DNA of 61,390 bases from an uncultured Fibrobacter sp. GTDB lineage: Bacteria; Fibrobacterota; Fibrobacteria; Fibrobacterales; Fibrobacteraceae. The DNA is taken from positions 1-61,390 of the forward strand of contig NZ_CAMVDO010000019.1 in NCBI RefSeq assembly GCF_947166265.1. The letters are read 5' to 3'. The translations under genes and the position numbers were made by a program. Positions 41,544-51,617 of this stretch are shown here, piece by piece. Under the pieces are notes generated by a model, which did not search any database, was not told where the DNA came from, and saw only the letters and a list, made by a program, of their open reading frames with translations. Position 1 is the first letter of the stretch, and every line of letters begins with the position of its first letter.

Positions 41544-41897
41544 ATGTACAGGGCAACACCGCTTACAGAACAAACCGCTCTCAAAGAGCTTGGCGAACGC
41601 ATCCGTGCGCACCGCGTCGCCCTGGACCTCTCGCGCGAAGCCCTCGCCGAAAAGGCGGGCGTCGGCAAGAATACATTAGTGCGACTCGAAATGGGCCAGA
41701 GCGTAAGCCTCTCGCACCTTGTCAAGGTTCTGTTGCAATTTGGATTTGCAGAATCGCTTGTTAACATTGTTCCCGATTATAGCCGTAGCCCCATGATGCT
41801 CCTCCGCGAATCGCAAAAACTGCCCCAGCGCAAACGTGCCGGTCGCAAGAAGAAGGCTGCCGCCAATGCGCCCTGGGTATGGGGAGAGGATAAATGA
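41544..41897 (+). CDS. hipB: HipB-like XRE antitoxin and repressor
   Basis: 117 residues with a near-perfect GGAGG site. A helix-turn-helix of XRE type spans about residues 12-65 (LGERIRAHRVALDLSREALAEKAGVGKNTLVRLE). The tail after residue 85 is Lys/Arg-rich (QRKRAGRKKKAAANAPW) and probably contacts HipA or DNA. It overlaps hipA by four bases (ATGA). HipB neutralises the HipA kinase and represses the operon through the palindromes around it. Confidence 0.9.
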   Translation: MYRATPLTEQTALKELGERIRAHRVALDLSREALAEKAGVGKNTLVRLEMGQSVSLSHLVKVLLQFGFAESLVNIVPDYSRSPMMLLRESQKLPQRKRAGRKKKAAANAPWVWGEDK

Positions 41898-43183
41898 CCT
41901 CCGTCGAGGTGCAGCTCTGGGGAACGACTGTCGGGGCGCTCTACCAAAAAGAGGGCGACGAATTCGCCTCGTTCGAATACGCTCCAGACTTCGCCCGCAG
42001 TGGCATAGAACCCGCGCCGGTCGCCATGCCCGTACGCAGCGGCGCCATTTACCGTTTTCCGGACCTTTCTCCCGCCACCTTCCATAGGCTGCCGGGGCTT
42101 TTCGTCGATTCCATTCCCGACAAGTTCGGCAACAAGATTATCGACCAGTGGCTTGTCCAGAACGGCAGGGACCCTAAAAGCTTTACCGCGCTCGAACGGC
42201 TCTGCTACACCGGCTCGCGCGGCATGGGCGCACTCGAGTTTTACCCCGTCATCGGTCCCGCCCCCGTCAAGAGCGAACCGCTCGAAATCGAAAGACTTCG
42301 CACCCTTGCGGCAAACATCCTGGACCAGCGCAAAAAAGTGAAGGTCAGGCTCCGCGAAAAAGACGCGTTCGAACAGATTGTCCGTGTCGGGACATCTGCC
42401 GGAGGCGCCCGCGCAAAGGTGCTCATCGCCTATGACGATTCGACGGGGACCGTGCTCTCGGGGCAAGTCCGCGCCCCCGAAGGATACGGCTACTGGCTTC
42501 TAAAATTCGACGACATCGAGAACAACCGCGACAAGGAAAACGCCGACCCGGCAGGTTTCGGGGCACTTGAATACACCTACAGCCAAATCGCAAAAGAAGC
42601 GGAAATCGAAATGACGGAATGCCGCCTGCTGGAAGACGGCGACCATAGGCACTTCATGACGCGCCGCTTCGACCGCACCGAGAACGGCGGCAAACTGCAC
42701 TACCAGTCGCTTACGGCCATCGCGCACTACGACTTCAACATTGCAGGGGCGTACAGCTACGAGCAGGCTTTCGCCATCGCAAGGCAAATCGGGCTTTCCA
42801 CCGCCGACATCGAACAGATGTACCGCAGGGCCGTATTCAACATTTGCGCGAGAAACCAGGACGACCACACGAAAAACATCGGCTTCTTGATGGACAAGCG
42901 CGGCAACTGGTCGCTCGCCCCCGCCTTCGATGTCACCTACGCCTACAACCCCGTCGGCCGCTGGACCGGAACGCACCAGATGACCTTCAACGGCAAACGC
43001 GAAAAATTCACCCTCGACGACTTCAAGGCGGTGGCAAAAAGCGCCGGCCTCGTACAGGGGCGCCACAAGCGCATCCTCGAGCAAGTGCAAGATGCTCTCG
43101 CAGGCTTCAAGAAGCTAGCCAAGGCAAATGACGTCCCCAAGAAACTCGTTCAGGAAGTTGCGAATAATTTAATTAAATTTTAA
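41894..43183 (+). CDS. hipA: HipA-family serine/threonine kinase toxin
   Basis: 429 residues. HipA kinases phosphorylate an aminoacyl-tRNA synthetase, halting translation and inducing dormancy. An N-terminal subdomain (HipA_N, about 1-115) precedes the kinase core. The ATP-binding strand area includes GTSAGGARAK near 165, MTRRFDR near 255, the catalytic loop ICARNQDDHTKN near 318 and the metal-binding APAFDVTYAY near 345, all as in active family members. The operon with hipB lies between dxs and sfsA, two ordinary genes, and is flanked on both sides by similar operator-like sequence, suggesting a movable cassette. Confidence 0.92.
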   Translation: MTSVEVQLWGTTVGALYQKEGDEFASFEYAPDFARSGIEPAPVAMPVRSGAIYRFPDLSPATFHRLPGLFVDSIPDKFGNKIIDQWLVQNGRDPKSFTALERLCYTGSRGMGALEFYPVIGPAPVKSEPLEIERLRTLAANILDQRKKVKVRLREKDAFEQIVRVGTSAGGARAKVLIAYDDSTGTVLSGQVRAPEGYGYWLLKFDDIENNRDKENADPAGFGALEYTYSQIAKEAEIEMTECRLLEDGDHRHFMTRRFDRTENGGKLHYQSLTAIAHYDFNIAGAYSYEQAFAIARQIGLSTADIEQMYRRAVFNICARNQDDHTKNIGFLMDKRGNWSLAPAFDVTYAYNPVGRWTGTHQMTFNGKREKFTLDDFKAVAKSAGLVQGRHKRILEQVQDALAGFKKLAKANDVPKKLVQEVANNLIKF

Positions 43184-44033: not shown

Positions 44034-44064
44034 AAAAAACTCCCCGAACGCAAGGGCCGGGGAG
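44034..44064 (-). terminator. Terminator of the radical-SAM operon
   Basis: On the minus strand CTCCCCG (44058-44064) and CGGGGAG (44040-44046) form a 7-bp stem followed by six T. It lies 32 bp after the stop of the B12-radical SAM gene. Confidence 0.8.
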
Positions 44065-44095: not shown

Positions 44096-45352
44096 CTAGA
44101 TGGTTTCCGCAAGCCTCCGCATCTTCTCGAAATCGTGCGAAGGATTGTCAACAACTTCGGGAATACCGAAGGCGTCCTCTTTCAGGGTAAGGCCATATTG
44201 CCCGATATCTTCGGCAAGTTTCGTCCCTTCGTAAACCTGCAAGGGGAACGCTCCCACCTTCCCGACACCATAGCTTTTGACAATCCCAATATCGCGGGCA
44301 AAAGAATCATAAGTCTGCAGCGGAAGCCCGTAAATCAAGGTGACCATCGTCGCGATCCCAAGCTCCCTGCAACGATCCAGCTTTTCGCGAAGTTGCGCCT
44401 CGGTCTTGTTACCGCCACGCTGAATAGTTTTCAATACAGCCGGATCAAGACTCTGCACGCCAATCTCGAAACTCACATTCGGATTCAGCGAAGCCTCTTC
44501 CATGAAGCGTTCCGTCAGCAGTTCCGGGCGAATCTGCAGCGTGACTTTTCCTGCGAAATCGACTTTGCGAATCAACTTTAGGTACTGTTCCCCGTGGCCT
44601 TCGTAATCATTGAAGAGCGGATCCAGAACGTTCAGCTTTTTCACCCCGCGATCCTTGAACAACTTGAGTTCATCGAGATGACGCTCGTAATTATCGATGC
44701 GATACACCTTGCCCGAGAGCGTATCACGATGCTTGCAGAAGGAACAGCGGAAAGAGCAACCGCGGCGAGTTTCAGCCCGCACGGTATCAACACCACCGCC
44801 AAGGGAGATGACGCCCGAAAGATACGGAGATTCAAGTTCTCCAAACTTGGGCAAATCCATCATACGTGAAACACCTTGGTTGATATAGTGGCGTAAATTC
44901 GCGAATATCTTTTCGCCGTAGCTGAGCGTAAACATATCCGCGAACGGAAAACGCCTGCGAAGTTCCTCTTCACTCCCAAAAATGGAGGCTCCCCCCAGCA
45001 TAATGAAGATGTCCGGAATGCGTCGGCGAAGTTCCGCGCCAGCGAGTGCAACCATCTTCTCGCACCAGCCAAACACGCTGAACGCGACCACATTGTACCC
45101 ACCAATGAGCACCCTGGTAACAACCTCGCTTGCAACGAGATTCCAGTCAATATTGAAATCGCCGTTCATCTTCTGAAAGCGATTCAAATCGCTAGTGAAC
45201 ACATCAAGCGTATCGCCTGCATTGGCAGGACTGTTCCAGAACGCGCCGGCAAGGCAGCTGGCCCCGTAAGCATCGCGAGGTTCGTTCTTGCGGCAGAAAT
45301 TACTACTCACAAGCAGCACGTGAAGCGGATTGTAGATGAAGGAGTTTTTCAT
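44096..45352 (-). CDS. B12-binding-domain radical SAM protein
   Basis: 418 residues from ATG 45352, with GGAGG five bases upstream. An N-terminal cobalamin-binding-like Rossmann domain (about 10-150; VVAFSVFGWCEKMVALAGAELRRR, IFIMLGGASIFG) precedes a radical SAM barrel with the [4Fe-4S] cysteines C199, C203, C206 (RRGCSFRCSFCKH), FEIGVQSLDPAVLKTIQRGG and MVTLIYGLPLQT. Such enzymes methylate or rearrange unreactive carbons or modify RNA, peptides or lipids. It is the third gene of an operon after the HicA-like and cysteine-less radical-SAM-like genes, 36 bp from the latter. The substrate is unknown. Confidence 0.85.
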   Translation of the reverse strand: MKNSFIYNPLHVLLVSSNFCRKNEPRDAYGASCLAGAFWNSPANAGDTLDVFTSDLNRFQKMNGDFNIDWNLVASEVVTRVLIGGYNVVAFSVFGWCEKMVALAGAELRRRIPDIFIMLGGASIFGSEEELRRRFPFADMFTLSYGEKIFANLRHYINQGVSRMMDLPKFGELESPYLSGVISLGGGVDTVRAETRRGCSFRCSFCKHRDTLSGKVYRIDNYERHLDELKLFKDRGVKKLNVLDPLFNDYEGHGEQYLKLIRKVDFAGKVTLQIRPELLTERFMEEASLNPNVSFEIGVQSLDPAVLKTIQRGGNKTEAQLREKLDRCRELGIATMVTLIYGLPLQTYDSFARDIGIVKSYGVGKVGAFPLQVYEGTKLAEDIGQYGLTLKEDAFGIPEVVDNPSHDFEKMRRLAETI

Positions 45353-45388
45353 GAGAGCCTCCATTATAGGTAGCTATGGAATCATATC

Positions 45389-46288
45389 CTACCCATTAAG
45401 GATGGAATTAATCCACATTTCATCAGAAGCATCAGCATCCGTGAAGAGGCCAAACATCTTCTTCATCGAGAATACAAGTTGAGTTGTTTCGCAGTCTTGT
45501 ACCTTGTCTTCAGAAGAAAACTCTAACCAACTACACAAATCATCCATCGAGACTTCGGCATGCCCCTTCAAAGGCATACATTCAACATTTTCAGTCTGCT
45601 TGATACTCCCGTTGGAAGACACGACCAAGCTGCGTTCTTTCGTGGAATTCTTGACCTGTACAGAGAGCGTCGTATCCATAACGTTATTACGGAGAAACGA
45701 GAAAAACTTGAAGTCAGAGGCTTTTTGCATTCCGGAAGCATCCTGTCGTAAAATTTTCCACTGGCAGTTCTTGAATCTTTGAAGAGAATCCGCCAAGATT
45801 TCGGTGTAGTTGTTTTCGCTCACTACCGTCCTGAATTTGACGCTCAACTTCTCGTTAACTTGACGCAGTGATTCAATCTTGCGGTAAAGACCTTCAAACG
45901 AAATATTCTGAGCAAAGGCGTCGCGATTCTTTTTCTCGACAAATTCGGGAACAAGGAAATCAACGGGGACCTCCACCTCTGTAATCAGATGCGCCATAGG
46001 ACGCAGAATGCCGAGTTGCGAATAATCAACTAATACCGAGATGCCAACGCCATTTTCTTTGGCAATTTTCGAGACCCTTAGAATCTCTTCCGGATCGAAA
46101 GAGCCCCTTGTAGTAGGAATACGCAAACGAATACCGACATCCTTGAGGCTATCTCGTATTTTCTTGGCAGTTTGCACTGCGCAAGCACCGTCACCATAAG
46201 TTTCTTCTTCGAAATAACAGAGTGAGAACCCCAACGAATTTTTGGAATTATTCTGTGGTATTATTGTGATTGGAATGAACTTGGACAT
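45389..46288 (-). CDS. Cysteine-less radical-SAM-fold protein, viperin-like C-terminal half
   Basis: 299 residues; AAAGGAG lies six bases before the ATG. The region 15-185 follows the order of a radical SAM barrel: ...CYFEEETYGDG, a helix AKKIRDSLKDVGIRLRIP, the loop TTRGSFDPEEI where such enzymes have GGEP, a strand GVGISVLVDYSQL, then KFRTVVSENNYTEIL and QWKILRQDA near 151-184. The last two match the viperin/QueE-type strands usually written KINTVVN..N and RWKVFQ. The CxxxCxxC cluster motif is absent; only C24 remains at the expected place, so an iron-sulfur cluster cannot form. It is probably a pseudoenzyme. It sits 22 bp after a HicA-like gene and 36 bp before an intact B12-radical SAM gene. 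Viperin kinship is my inference from motif order. Confidence 0.6.
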   Translation of the reverse strand: MSKFIPITIIPQNNSKNSLGFSLCYFEEETYGDGACAVQTAKKIRDSLKDVGIRLRIPTTRGSFDPEEILRVSKIAKENGVGISVLVDYSQLGILRPMAHLITEVEVPVDFLVPEFVEKKNRDAFAQNISFEGLYRKIESLRQVNEKLSVKFRTVVSENNYTEILADSLQRFKNCQWKILRQDASGMQKASDFKFFSFLRNNVMDTTLSVQVKNSTKERSLVVSSNGSIKQTENVECMPLKGHAEVSMDDLCSWLEFSSEDKVQDCETTQLVFSMKKMFGLFTDADASDEMWINSILNG

Positions 46289-46310
46289 ATTAATCTCCTT
46301 TTGTTAAGGT

Positions 46311-46553
46311 TTAGGCGATGATTACGCCGGTCTGGATGAGATATGCACGGATGTAATGGTTGTATTCGCGTTCGAGCATCTTGAAGGCGTTACCTTTACT
46401 CGGTGTTACCGCGACAACCAACGCCTTGCGGCTAGTCGGGGCTTTGTGCTTCAGGATGGAGTGTTTGCCGCCCCGATAGAAGTTCCAACGACCGCTCCGA
46501 AGGAGGGCGTTACAGAAATCGTTGATTCGCTTGTCGGCTGAGATGTAAATCAT
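46311..46553 (-). CDS. HicA-like small protein
   Basis: 80 residues from ATG 46553, with GAGGT upstream; a longer frame to 46604 lacks a ribosome site. The sequence FCNALLRSGRWNFYRGGKHSILKHKAP and VVAVTPSKGNAFKMLEREYNHYIRAY has the order and spacing of the HicA dsRBD-like mRNA interferase fold; the catalytic His of HicA would be H31 (GGKHSILKH). No HicB antitoxin gene follows; instead a radical-SAM-fold gene begins 22 bp downstream. It may be a toxin with an unusual partner or an RNA-binding subunit. Confidence 0.6.
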   Translation of the reverse strand: MIYISADKRINDFCNALLRSGRWNFYRGGKHSILKHKAPTSRKALVVAVTPSKGNAFKMLEREYNHYIRAYLIQTGVIIA

Positions 46554-46588: not shown

Positions 46589-46822
46589 ATGTGTTTGGAA
46601 ACATCCCGCTCGGTTGGAACGGAATTCCAGGCTTTTGATGCAGCGAAAAACTGCCGCAGACAAAACGCCAAAAACCACCTATTGATTCAACAGGTGACTA
46701 CTAATAAATGTCAATGGATTGCTGTCATAGAACCTCCCCTTTTGACTCCAGCGATTGTCAAAAGGCTCAAGCGACTTGCTGGATTCGGGATCGTCAACTA
46801 TGACACTTATAATATACAATAA
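46589..46822 (+). pseudogene. Possible C-terminal fragment of a lost gene
   Basis: A 77-codon open frame, overlapping the upstream end of the HicA-like frame head to head, without a ribosome binding site at its ATG. The last 40 residues (QWIAVIEPPLLTPAIVKRLKRLAGFGIVNYDTYNIQ, about 46712-46819) look like real protein, while the start does not. This fits a gene remnant left by recombination. No family assigned. Confidence 0.3.
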
Positions 46823-46903: not shown

Positions 46904-49900
46904 TTAGGTAGCTTTTTTCGAGTTATTCTTTAGTTGAGACATTTCGAATGTGACTCTTACTAGATACAAGAAGAATCGATTGTCGTAAAGTTCTAAAAGT
47001 TTTTTTTCTATTTCATATCCTTCATCATCCCTCTGGTAATGTCCAATAATTCCGAATATGAAATTCAGAAATTTCTGAAGATCCTCGCGTAAGGGATTTT
47101 CGTATTTTTTTGAAGCGAGAGACTCCTTTAAACCCTTTATTTTGTTGTTTCTGTCGCCTAAAAAATCTTCCTTAGAGAAAATGATATTGCCATTATGATC
47201 TAATAAAGGTTCAGAATTTAATTTATCTTTAATTTCTTCCAAGGAGGTCAAATAACAAATGGTTCGCTGCAAAAGCGATTTCGCAATTTCTAACAAATGA
47301 ATGTCGTATGTGGAATCGTTTTCAAACACATCAATGCTTTTGGGATCAATTTCCTTTTGTGCTTCAGTCAGCTTCTCCCGCGCCTTTTCAGAAACCTTCC
47401 TTGAGATGGCTATCAGATCGGGGGCTATAAAATTCGATTCTATTAGGGAATCAATGTCGGTTAAGAACTCGATAAAGTCAATTTTGTATTTGGGGCTGTT
47501 GGGATAATAGTATTCGTTGTTGAGAACTTCATAATCAATGAATTCAAGGTATTTCTTCATTTCTGACACATCTTTTTCTTTGGCAATTTCATTGATATCA
47601 TTTTGATACCATTTATAATGCCACAACTCGTTGTCGTTGTTGAATAACGAAAAGTCATAATTTTCGCATATACCGAATTCATTTCTACAACTATAAATAT
47701 TCTTGAACAAGATGAATGTCGGCAATTGTTTGGCTATTTCTTGTACTTCTTTTTCGAATAAATTGTAATCACCTAACTTAGAAAAATTATCCAAGGTATC
47801 AAAGTTTACAATTTGCGCTATTCCATTCCTTAAATAGTCCAACTTTTCAAGAGCCATTTTTGCCGTCTTTAAATCTTTTAGAACATTTTTCCATTCAAAG
47901 AAGGATTCCCAAGATTCTATTTTGTAGTAAGTTTGCCAATGCAATTTTTTATCTTCAGGCGTTGGTGTTTCAGATGAAAGGGCTGCCCAATATACAGAGT
48001 TATAACTTTGTTTAAGGCAATCTAAAGAGGTAATAATTTCCCTGTAATTTTGTTTTTCCCATTCAGAGAAGATGTATTCCATAAATGATTTTTGTTGGTC
48101 TTTTAGGATGGCAAAACAAGTGGGAATTTCTTTTAGTCTGTCCTTGTATCTGTTAATATTCCTTGTTTTTTCATGGATGGATTTGAAGACACAGTCTTTT
48201 GCTTTAGCTGCACAGTTCATTATATCAAAAGGAATAGGGTCAATGACATCCTTTTGCTTTTTCTTAGAAATTTTTTGAATATATACTGATTCGGAATTTA
48301 TAATATGAGCAAAAATTTCTTGCAGCAATTTATGGAGAGAATCTTGTTCGCCATCAACAGAGAAAGCACCTTTGCGACGGAATGAAAATTTTTTATGGGT
48401 GTCGGCGACAGAATATAAGGTGGATTCATTTTCAATTCGGTTCTTTACGTCATATAAAATTCCTAGCAGATCATTGAAATTGCGTACCTCCAATAACTTT
48501 TCAGTGGGGCTGAATGGAGAATAGTGTTCATGCATGTTCCTTGCGGGTTTTATATATATTGTCGACAGCATACAGCGATACTGATGTTGAAAGGGAGCGT
48601 ATTCTTCCATTTTAGGTGGAGGAACGCAAGATACGTCCGTTTCTAAAAACAATTTACACTTAAAATCGCGAACACAGATGTCATTAAGATTTGTCAAATG
48701 ATTTTGAGTAACTTTATTGATATTAAATCCTGTATCAATTGATTGCATTTCTTTGTATTCTTTTTCGAATTTAGGACGTTTCTGTTTTCCAATTCTATCA
48801 TTCCAGAATGTATTCCATGAATCTATTCTCTGCGTATGGTACTTAAAAGTTTTGTCCCGTAATTCATCTAGATGGTTGACTTGCTGGACTATCCCATTTT
48901 CAGGATTAATCGAGGTGAATGAAACGATATTGTAAATTAGGTTAATTGCACTTTCGGTTTGCGAAAATCCATTGCCATCTATCATTCCGTCAAACAAACG
49001 AAAATCAACATTTTTCGTCACGATCGGCAAATCATTGTTTTTTAGCAGCTCATTTAGCAATTCGTACTGCTTTTGGGGTGTTTGCCAAATTGAATTTGGA
49101 GCCAATAACGCGTTTTTGAACTTTCCTATGAGTTCTTTATTTGGAGTAGAAATAATACTGTATCGTTCAAGTTTAGGAATAGCGACAAGATCTAGCAGGG
49201 CAAAAAAGACTAGATACTGCAATATCGAGGCCGCGTTATTTTTTTCATTTTCTTTGGGAATGGCAATAAAGTCGTTTTTGACGAATTTTTTATACTCACT
49301 AGCTTTTATGTGGAGACGCTTACTATCATCTACTTGATAAGCTTCAGGTTTGTTGGCATTCTCTAAAAACAAAGACTTAAATTCATTGTACTTGAGAAAA
49401 CTGATTGACCAATAAATAAAGAAAACGATTGAGGGAAATCTTTTAATAGCAACCGGAGAAATAGCAAGAACTGTTCGCAAGCAAATTATTACCTGTTCTT
49501 GAGATTCCGTTTCTGAACCATAATCCCAGAAACTTTTTCCAAAACATCTTTTTATCAATGAAATAATGCTTCTCTCTTGTTGGACAAAGACCAAACGGGG
49601 ACTTTCTTTTTCTTTGTCACTAAAAGTCTCATATTGAACTTTTGTTGTCCTGATCCTGCAATCTATGTTTAAAACAGCTATAATATCATCGAGATTCCAA
49701 AAGAAAGAATTAGATTTTTCTAAACCATAATATTGATCAAAACATGTGTTTTTTTCTATTATTAATTTGAAGTTGTCTGGAGAACGAGCGGCTTTATTCT
49801 TGTATTCGATTAATTTTTCAAGAAAAAAAACATTAGCATTCCTATAAATAAGATTTTCCTTTGTGTGATAGGCGCAGAATAACGAAACTCTGTATAGTTC

Positions 49901-50530
49901 CCTTTTTATTATAGGTGATTCATCATAGCTAAAGAATTTAGTGCAGTAGGAAAATAACACATAGGAAAAGTCTTCATCCGAAACCTTAAATATTTTGACA
50001 AATTTTTTTAGAATTTCAGCCTTCTTTTTATGCCAGGAATCTTTATAAGAATCATAGTGTGATACAAAAAAGTCTATGTTTTTATCATCATAGAGTTCTT
50101 TATACTCCTGCGTAAGCATTTTAAGGCATTGAATCAATTTATTCTTTATTTTGTCCATCTTTTTCTTACCATCGCCAGTGCCGCAAAAAGCGGATATGTA
50201 GAACTGGTAGTATATGGCGCACAACGCCGCAAAGAAAATGGAAAATTCATCGCAATTAAATCTTGCATTCTTTTTGTTTAATTCAGGTATATCGTGTTCA
50301 ACTAGAAAAATGCATTCCTGCATTAATTGGTCGTCAATGTGTGGACGCCCTTCTCCCAAATCCGAGATATTGTGCCTGAAAATTATTTCAATATTTGTAT
50401 TGATAGAATTCGTATTACCCGATTCTTTAGAGGCGATATTCGAGACTGCTTTATCGGAATCTAAGGTATCATCGCCAAATAGGCTTTCAAAAGCTTCGTC
50501 CATATCAAAATCGTCTGTATTCTTATTCAT
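46904..50530 (-). CDS. 1208-residue orphan protein with a HEPN-like RNxxxH motif
   Basis: The ATG at 50530 has GAGG upstream. No signal peptide, membrane segment, P-loop or known family was recognised. The protein is mostly helical, rich in Lys, Asn, Phe and Tyr, and encoded in AT-rich DNA unlike sfsA or dxs. Its first 45 residues are acidic and disordered-looking. ARNMHEHY at 663-670 fits the RNxxxH signature of HEPN ribonucleases (R664, H669), and RDKTFKYH (R558, H565) fits the looser Rx6H form. LRNGIAQ near 900 looks like the same motif with the His lost. A single-gene abortive-infection RNase or a large RNA-binding protein are both possible. It is a single gene between the HicA-like operon and a hairpin-rich leader. 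Confidence is for a real gene, not for the HEPN call. Confidence 0.8.
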   Translation of the reverse strand: MNKNTDDFDMDEAFESLFGDDTLDSDKAVSNIASKESGNTNSINTNIEIIFRHNISDLGEGRPHIDDQLMQECIFLVEHDIPELNKKNARFNCDEFSIFFAALCAIYYQFYISAFCGTGDGKKKMDKIKNKLIQCLKMLTQEYKELYDDKNIDFFVSHYDSYKDSWHKKKAEILKKFVKIFKVSDEDFSYVLFSYCTKFFSYDESPIIKRELYRVSLFCAYHTKENLIYRNANVFFLEKLIEYKNKAARSPDNFKLIIEKNTCFDQYYGLEKSNSFFWNLDDIIAVLNIDCRIRTTKVQYETFSDKEKESPRLVFVQQERSIISLIKRCFGKSFWDYGSETESQEQVIICLRTVLAISPVAIKRFPSIVFFIYWSISFLKYNEFKSLFLENANKPEAYQVDDSKRLHIKASEYKKFVKNDFIAIPKENEKNNAASILQYLVFFALLDLVAIPKLERYSIISTPNKELIGKFKNALLAPNSIWQTPQKQYELLNELLKNNDLPIVTKNVDFRLFDGMIDGNGFSQTESAINLIYNIVSFTSINPENGIVQQVNHLDELRDKTFKYHTQRIDSWNTFWNDRIGKQKRPKFEKEYKEMQSIDTGFNINKVTQNHLTNLNDICVRDFKCKLFLETDVSCVPPPKMEEYAPFQHQYRCMLSTIYIKPARNMHEHYSPFSPTEKLLEVRNFNDLLGILYDVKNRIENESTLYSVADTHKKFSFRRKGAFSVDGEQDSLHKLLQEIFAHIINSESVYIQKISKKKQKDVIDPIPFDIMNCAAKAKDCVFKSIHEKTRNINRYKDRLKEIPTCFAILKDQQKSFMEYIFSEWEKQNYREIITSLDCLKQSYNSVYWAALSSETPTPEDKKLHWQTYYKIESWESFFEWKNVLKDLKTAKMALEKLDYLRNGIAQIVNFDTLDNFSKLGDYNLFEKEVQEIAKQLPTFILFKNIYSCRNEFGICENYDFSLFNNDNELWHYKWYQNDINEIAKEKDVSEMKKYLEFIDYEVLNNEYYYPNSPKYKIDFIEFLTDIDSLIESNFIAPDLIAISRKVSEKAREKLTEAQKEIDPKSIDVFENDSTYDIHLLEIAKSLLQRTICYLTSLEEIKDKLNSEPLLDHNGNIIFSKEDFLGDRNNKIKGLKESLASKKYENPLREDLQKFLNFIFGIIGHYQRDDEGYEIEKKLLELYDNRFFLYLVRVTFEMSQLKNNSKKAT

Positions 50531-50900: not shown

Positions 50901-51617
50901 ATGGACACGGAAAAGAAAATAGCCCTGATTATCGACTGCGACAATGCCAAGGCGGACGCCATCTACGGCATTATGGAAGAACTCTCCAAGTTCGGGGAGA
51001 CGAGCATTCGCAGGGCATACGGCAACTGGAAAGGGAGCAACCCTTGGGAAGAAGTCCTGCATCCGTTCGCAATTCAGCCGATACAGCAGTTCCCCTACAC
51101 GAAGGGGAAGAACGCGACCGACCTCGCGATGACCATCGACGTGATGGAACTCCTGTTCACGGAGAGCATCGACATTTTCGCTATCGTGAGCAGTGATTCG
51201 GATTTCACTCCGCTTGCCATGAAACTCCGTGCCAAGTCGAAACAGGTAATCGGGTTCGGCGAAGAAAAGACGCCGCAGCCGTTCATCGACTCGTGTAATT
51301 CTTTTATCTATATCGACAAGTTCAAGAAGCCGACCGAATCGGACGAGGCGACAAACAACATTGAACCGCTTGACCGCAATAAGCTGCGCGGTAATGCGAA
51401 AATCATGAACGCCATTCGCAAGGCAATCAGCGAAGAGGCAGACGAAGCGGGCTGGGCAATCGCATCGAAGATTTCGCAGCAAATCAACCGTCAGATTTCG
51501 CTGAGTCCCAAGAATTTCGGCTACGCCAAGTGGCCGGCCCTTATCCATGCCACGGAGTATTTCGAAGAGGGCAAGAATTCCAAGGGGCAGCAGGTATTCC
51601 GCATCAAGAAGAAATAG
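50901..51617 (+). CDS. NYN-domain ribonuclease-like protein with OST-HTH/LOTUS domain
   Basis: 238 residues. The N-terminal NYN domain (LabA/MARF1-type PIN fold, about 5-135) has IDCDNAKAD with D12 and D14, NATDLAM with D74, and SSDSDFTPL with D99 and D101, a complete acidic set for metal-dependent RNA cleavage. A C-terminal OST-HTH (LOTUS) domain (about 155-236; LSPKNFGYAKWPALIHATEYFE) should bind RNA or a protein partner. The pairing is the standard bacterial DUF88 architecture. It is divergent from the 1208-residue gene, across the hairpin-rich region. The TATATT box (50888-50893) predicts a leaderless message. Confidence 0.92.
   Translation: MDTEKKIALIIDCDNAKADAIYGIMEELSKFGETSIRRAYGNWKGSNPWEEVLHPFAIQPIQQFPYTKGKNATDLAMTIDVMELLFTESIDIFAIVSSDSDFTPLAMKLRAKSKQVIGFGEEKTPQPFIDSCNSFIYIDKFKKPTESDEATNNIEPLDRNKLRGNAKIMNAIRKAISEEADEAGWAIASKISQQINRQISLSPKNFGYAKWPALIHATEYFEEGKNSKGQQVFRIKKK

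Follow-up and report, generated by a model that had tools for sequence, protein, structure and literature searches.

What might an operon do that encodes, one after the other, a HicA-like protein, a radical SAM protein without the cysteines of its class and an intact B12-dependent radical SAM enzyme? The question is raised by the window analyzed here, the 61,390 nucleotides of contig NZ_CAMVDO010000019.1 from an uncultured Fibrobacter sp. (GCF_947166265.1), for which an initial annotation had suggested a defence or nucleotide-modifying module. Among GTDB genomes, its close relatives are Fibrobacter succinogenes and Fibrobacter sp. MAGs. We refer to the three genes as hicA-like (or hicA), vip* and rSAM. 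The locus contains the following features:

46904..50530, minus strand: gene for a 1208-aa protein, 5' of hicA, with homologues upstream of hicA elsewhere.
46311..46553, minus strand: hicA-like gene, 80 aa (PADLOC PDLC02910, weak match to Pfam HicA_toxin, invariant His48).
45389..46288, minus strand: vip*, 299 aa, predicted cysteine-less viperin pseudoenzyme (NF038283, PADLOC pVip, fold, residues, dN/dS).
44096..45352, minus strand: rSAM, B12-radical SAM gene, PADLOC candidate PDC-M51A, 418 aa (PDC-M51A and Pfam Radical_SAM profiles, Foldseek, intact CxxxCxxC).
44042..44055, minus strand: terminator-like hairpin with T run, 3' of the operon (sequence and terminator scan).

The open reading frames and the sequence bear out the operon as it was initially described: three minus-strand genes separated by 22 bp (hicA-like to vip*) and 36 bp (vip* to rSAM), with a hairpin and T run at the end. 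An AGGAG ribosome site precedes vip* and a GGAGG precedes rSAM. The hicA-like gene has a longer alternative ATG at 46604, and we placed its start at 46553 because homologues begin at M18. The rSAM frame opens at 45364; the ATG at 45352, which gives 418 aa, is preferred because the GGAGG falls inside the longer version. A GC hairpin followed by TTTTTT (44055-44042) closes the operon; since shuffled sequences yielded 6.0 terminator-like sites against the 9 observed, the hairpin alone is weak evidence for a terminator. The search for the trio in other genomes recovered hicA, vip* and rSAM in the same order in two other Fibrobacter species (G059 and G021). Because this order is kept in two further species and vip* is under purifying selection, the trio is not a chance assembly. 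Elsewhere in the window, a gene for an NYN RNase and OST-HTH/LOTUS protein (50901-51617), divergent to the 1208-aa gene, may belong to the same defence island, and HipB-like and HipA genes (41544-43183) lie by sfsA at the dxs-side island edge; the latter pair is also found in L058 and is absent there in L059-L061 and L063.

To which family does the middle protein belong? The vip* sequence matched the NCBIfam viperin model NF038283 (E=2.1e-12) with 46.8 bits, below the 180-bit membership cut-off, which makes it a relative but no member by sequence, and it matched PADLOC pVip with E=2.3e-14. An AF2 model built from 13 relatives (pLDDT 68, pTM 0.71) is predicted to consist of beta/alpha repeats, and when it was compared with solved structures, the top 11 entries were all viperins (Z 13.6-14.5, the nearest from mouse, Trichoderma and Nematostella), followed by NifB at 12.1. 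The predicted model therefore has the viperin fold, and the barrel order noted in the initial annotation was right. Model confidence is middling and the alignment contained true viperins, so the fold and profile evidence are not fully independent. A search of solved-structure sequences with vip* alone returned chance matches only; the family profile was required. By profile and predicted fold, vip* is a degenerate prokaryotic viperin, which narrows the original description of a cysteine-less radical SAM protein to a specifically viperin-derived one. No vip* relatives were found on viral contigs, and a search of plasmids and phages gave only genuine Moraxella viperins on plasmids (E=4e-4) and nothing in phages.

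We compared the residues of the three vip* with those of ten Fibrobacterota pVips. Motif inspection agreed with the annotation that CxxxCxxC and GGEP are both missing: the cluster cysteine positions hold Asn13, Asn/Asp17 and Gly20 in all three vip*, GGEP is replaced by TTRG, TTRS or TKRG, the TNG SAM-binding motif reads VDY, and the catalytic tyrosine (Tyr258, SYL motif) has become Ser/Ala220. Hence, vip* lacks the [4Fe-4S] motif, the GGEP/TNG SAM motifs and the catalytic tyrosine of viperins, and because these residues are lost, vip* is very unlikely to carry out ordinary radical SAM chemistry by itself. Retained are Asp110, Arg122, Lys151, Asn160 and the KILRQ strand with Lys178. Arginine and lysine residues at the places equivalent to Arg122, Lys151 and Lys178 presumably hold the triphosphate in viperin-CTP structures, a role that is putative in vip*. 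At 75 positions, nine or all ten of the pVips agree; of these, vip* kept 4 of 22 in the cluster/SAM part, 17 of 29 in the middle of the barrel and 4 of 24 in the C-terminal part. The regions were picked after viewing the alignment; a Fisher test of the cluster/SAM part against the middle of the barrel gave p=0.005.

The vip* orthologues in G059 (96% identical) and G021 (87%) each lie between hicA and the same rSAM. The reading frames are intact in the three species, with dN/dS values of 0.13, 0.30 and 0.24, and a simple binomial test rejected neutrality (p 2e-5 to 8e-9). Intact frames and these ratios rule out a plain pseudogene, and since the putative phosphate-binding arginine and lysines are also kept, vip* is a selected pseudoenzyme rather than a decaying gene. 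Its fastest-changing part is the former cluster region; its most constrained part is the last 39 residues, which show no amino-acid change across the three vip*. A similar C-terminal tail occurs in all five hicA-linked pVips and is absent or short in five other pVips. The tail, the gene order and the top BLAST matches suggest that vip* arose from a hicA-linked pVip. In the tree, the branch of vip* is so long (2.63) that the tree neither identified its exact parent among the pVips nor rooted it inside the hicA-linked ones.

The third gene proved to be the intact B12-radical SAM gene that had been claimed. Its product matched PADLOC PDC-M51A over nearly its whole length (E=1.2e-68, residues 15-421 of 422) and Pfam Radical_SAM with E=5.6e-16; the Pfam match for B12 binding was weak (E=0.014). 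The model is predicted to combine an N-terminal Rossmann B12-binding domain with a core that carries an intact cluster motif (C203xxxC207xxC210), and its top Foldseek matches were CysS, TokK, MgmA, TsrM and OxsB, with MiaB/RimO-type enzymes also nearby. Component A of PDC-M51 is thus present at the locus; component B, a VakA-like kinase, is not adjacent, and the PDC-M51B matches of this genome lie on other contigs. B12-radical SAM enzymes act on many substrates besides nucleotides. Sub-threshold NCBIfam matches raised the reading of rSAM as a RiPP maturase, which we rejected, as an unsystematic look noticed no precursor peptide adjoining. Relatives of rSAM were absent from viral contigs, and plasmids held distant radical SAMs only.

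Close copies of rSAM occur in ten Fibrobacter genomes. In nine of them hicA lies no more than 1.6 kb away; the tenth is a 65% complete MAG. The gene between hicA and rSAM is vip* in three genomes, a 208-aa protein of unknown family in two, a small cysteine-rich protein in two and none in two. As seven of the ten copies have a different middle gene or lack one, rSAM is independent of vip*, and because rSAM occurs at those other loci without vip*, vip* is dispensable there. The linkage of the three genes thus held in one direction: vip* always stands with both neighbours (3 of 3), whereas hicA and rSAM occur without vip*. Since eight of the ten loci lie at a single chromosomal site upstream of dxs, the linkage to hicA does not represent ten independent events; hicA-rSAM is found at other chromosomal sites in G028 and G037. 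The 208-aa protein occupies the vip* position between hicA and the B12 enzyme at L058:7279-7905 and L059:7169-7795, and the small cysteine-rich (zinc-ribbon-like) protein lies just 5' of the B12 enzyme at L060:9749-10105 and L064:9898-10335. In L024, the gene for a similar-looking 119-aa protein lies upstream of a pVip that is linked to a kinase.

Five genomes of the family have a genuine pVip with CxxxCxxC beside hicA, and at four of these five loci it follows hicA directly, as vip* does here. Locus L020, which carries a pVip, and loci L058/L059, which carry rSAM, are ~87% identical in DNA from two divergent genes through hicA, up to the hicA stop codon, where the match abruptly ends. Likewise, L021 (ankyrin-hicA-pVip) and L062 (hicA-rSAM) occupy the same chromosomal site, with flanks 93% and 97.6% identical and the effector swapped; in L062 and L063, hicA is followed directly by rSAM with no viperin between. 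The large upstream proteins are homologous across pVip and rSAM loci (E to 9e-81): the ankyrin proteins of L019/L021 (pVip) are homologous to that of L060 (rSAM; E to 1e-30), and that of L172 to those of L061/L063 (29% over ~829 aa, E to 9e-81). Judged by these comparisons, PDC-M51A in Fibrobacter stands where genuine viperin does, after the same hicA/ankyrin/ATPase modules.

Outside Fibrobacter, a scan of GTDB contigs yielded 22 PDC-M51A loci, and even samples of two classes contained PDC-M51A in 3 of 369 and 3 of 395 genomes; its distribution is patchy, like that of a defence gene. Directly upstream of it in L088 and L186 lies a thymidylate-kinase-like gene that matched PDC-M51B (1e-29 and 2e-28) and VakA, the kinase associated with viperin (2e-16 and 3e-18). 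This VakA-like kinase lies 5' of rSAM at L186:4151-5958, with a 4-bp overlap, and at L088:4663-6199, the two loci coming from Bacteroidia and Gammaproteobacteria. A kinase association of viperin was reportedly described by Bernheim in 2021 and also appears in PADLOC model descriptions. A viperin-associated NERD protein adjoins PDC-M51A in L085 (2e-18), and an ankyrin protein of type PDLC02908 in L078 (1e-18); an ankyrin protein also lies beside rSAM in L061/L063. From their names and neighbouring accession numbers we take PDLC02908, VakA and HicA-like to be PADLOC models of viperin partners, the PADLOC descriptions stating the viperin link for the NERD and kinase-linked pVip models only. Every recognisable type of viperin partner thus appears to pair with PDC-M51A as well, in an uncontrolled tally with few loci per type.

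Defence genes are also found beside PDC-M51A: Hachiman HamA/HamB (L083), a SIR2 candidate (L084), PDC-M46 (L092), a PDC-S26 nuclease with MazG (L091) and a DUF262-type protein (L185). In L083:7794-12494, from a member of the Flavobacteriaceae, the PDC-M51A gene stands directly 5' of hamA-hamB, as if it were an added effector. At L086:6933-10351, an oligonucleotide cyclase, the B12-radical SAM enzyme and a CARF-PDDEXK nuclease are encoded consecutively, which might connect the B12 enzyme with cyclic-nucleotide signalling.

What, then, might the operon do? We put at about even odds (roughly 0.5) that it is a viperin-type anti-phage operon with an exchanged catalyst, in which the B12 enzyme would perform the nucleotide chemistry and vip* would act as a nucleotide-binding or scaffold subunit. 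The suggestion of a defence or nucleotide-modifying module stands as the best reading, given the partners and the exchange with pVip, and the role in phage defence rests on association, namely the defence genes beside PDC-M51A. A wider generalization is more tentative: PDC-M51A may be a B12-dependent viperin analogue, interchangeable with pVip behind HicA, ankyrin, kinase and NERD modules, and in some Fibrobacter it may act as one complex together with a dead viperin whose nucleotide site is kept and which presents the substrate. The nucleotide substrate, its product, the contact between vip* and the enzyme, the activity of HicA and phage defence itself are all proposed here.

In the proposed scheme, the ancestral Fibrobacter locus would have consisted of a sensor (an ankyrin or large protein, or an ATPase), hicA and pVip. 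PDC-M51A would have taken over the pVip position at a set of loci, and here the old viperin would have been kept, as the non-catalytic vip*, between hicA and the B12 enzyme. Upon infection, the B12 enzyme would alter a nucleotide, by C-methylation, ring contraction or dehydration of the sugar. Viperin produces ddh-nucleotides that block phage nucleic-acid synthesis, and the altered nucleotide might act in the same way. The vip* protein would bind or present the nucleotide through the putative triphosphate-binding Arg122/Lys151/Lys178, tether HicA, or both, and HicA would bind or cleave RNA. There is a precedent for a B12-radical SAM enzyme that acts on a deoxynucleotide together with a second protein: in oxetanocin A and albucidin biosynthesis, OxsB, which converts dATP toward an antiviral nucleoside, requires OxsA, and AlsB requires a second radical SAM protein, AlsA (PMC13331322). 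However, these pairs belong to secondary metabolism and not to defence, the second protein is either a phosphohydrolase or a radical SAM enzyme that is itself active, rather than a dead viperin, and OxsB is only a moderate fold match to the rSAM of the window.

The front gene is HicA-like, as first annotated, by its match to PADLOC PDLC02910 (E=4.9e-11). Like the HicA toxins of PF07927, it encodes a small HicA-like domain and retains the histidine region (G-K/S-H), here as G-K-H with His48 invariant in 15 homologues. Unlike them, it scores 12.9 bits against Pfam HicA_toxin, under the 27-bit gathering cut-off, and no HicB antitoxin gene adjoins it in the operon, so that it has neither the curated profile score nor the HicB of a HicA toxin. 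The family has many such genes (36 matches, in 31 of 111 genomes); at least 18 of the matches lie next to no viperin and no B12 enzyme gene, and hicA-like genes are found with further partners too. One genome carries two different hicA-like genes ~5.5 kb apart, with an 853-aa protein encoded after one of them (L168:4446-10601). The 1208-aa gene lies ~350 bp upstream of hicA on the same strand. Its product matched no Pfam, PADLOC or NCBIfam profile; it belongs to a different family from the ankyrin proteins, with homologues (E to 1.7e-40) encoded upstream of hicA in L064, L156 and L161 and, in L157, close to a hicA, and it is probably a sensor or regulator.

The lack of a HicB neighbour raises the main rival, in which vip* would be an antitoxin or adaptor that controls or tethers HicA, hicA and vip* would form a toxin-regulator pair, and the B12 enzyme would be a separate effector. 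It would suit the position of vip* directly 3' of hicA, shared with pVip at four of five hicA-linked loci, and the tail, the most constrained part of vip*, which the hicA-linked pVips share and other pVips lack. Yet L062 and L063, where rSAM follows hicA directly, indicate that HicA needs no viperin, and identity to the two sister loci is only ~55% for the HicA of the window, compared with 96% and 87% for vip*, which argues against tight co-adaptation. We consider this rival rather unlikely.

Less probable still is a macromolecular substrate, such that the B12 enzyme would modify a macromolecule or HicA-bound RNA or tRNA, with HicA delivering the RNA and vip* serving as an RNA- or nucleotide-binding spacer. 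HicA domains bind double-stranded RNA (PMC10865869), and the Foldseek proximity of MiaB/RimO-type enzymes would fit, but this likeness to methylthiotransferases may reflect the shared core fold only, and the VakA-like kinase in L088 and L186, together with the exchange with pVip, points to free nucleotides. Finally, that a dxs-side defence hotspot merely gathers unrelated genes, with vip* a viperin being lost, is improbable: eight rSAM loci at that site, the variable middle gene and the commonness of hicA-like genes fit it, but vip* has dN/dS well below 1 and intact frames in three species, hicA-rSAM lies at other sites in G028 and G037, and viperin partners adjoin PDC-M51A in other phyla too.

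Parts of this arrangement are already known, namely hicA-viperin loci and PDC-M51 as a bare candidate system. The initial annotation, which knew of no described system with this arrangement, therefore needs amending for hicA next to viperin, described as classes 9/10 by Gerdes 2024 (PMC10865869). Our literature search, which reached few subscription papers and preprints, turned up no account of PDC-M51A standing in for viperin or of a conserved viperin without its cysteines, and no mention of the name PDC-M51. Compared with hicA-linked pVip (NF038283, PADLOC PDLC02903/02904), vip* shares operon position, predicted fold, tail and upstream modules but lacks the cluster cysteines, GGEP and the catalytic tyrosine and is followed by a B12-radical SAM gene. 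Compared with PDC-M51 (PDC-M51A plus the VakA-like kinase PDC-M51B), the window has the PDC-M51A enzyme but, in place of the kinase, a HicA-like protein and a dead viperin.

Viperin is a nucleotide-modifying antiviral enzyme common to humans and bacteria. If PDC-M51A replaces it, a second radical chemistry would exist for making antiviral nucleotide analogues, and with it new candidate chain terminators. With a dead viperin that selection maintains, the roles that viperin plays without catalysis could be tested directly, and from the shared HicA partner one might learn what HicA does in viperin loci, a question posed by Gerdes 2024.
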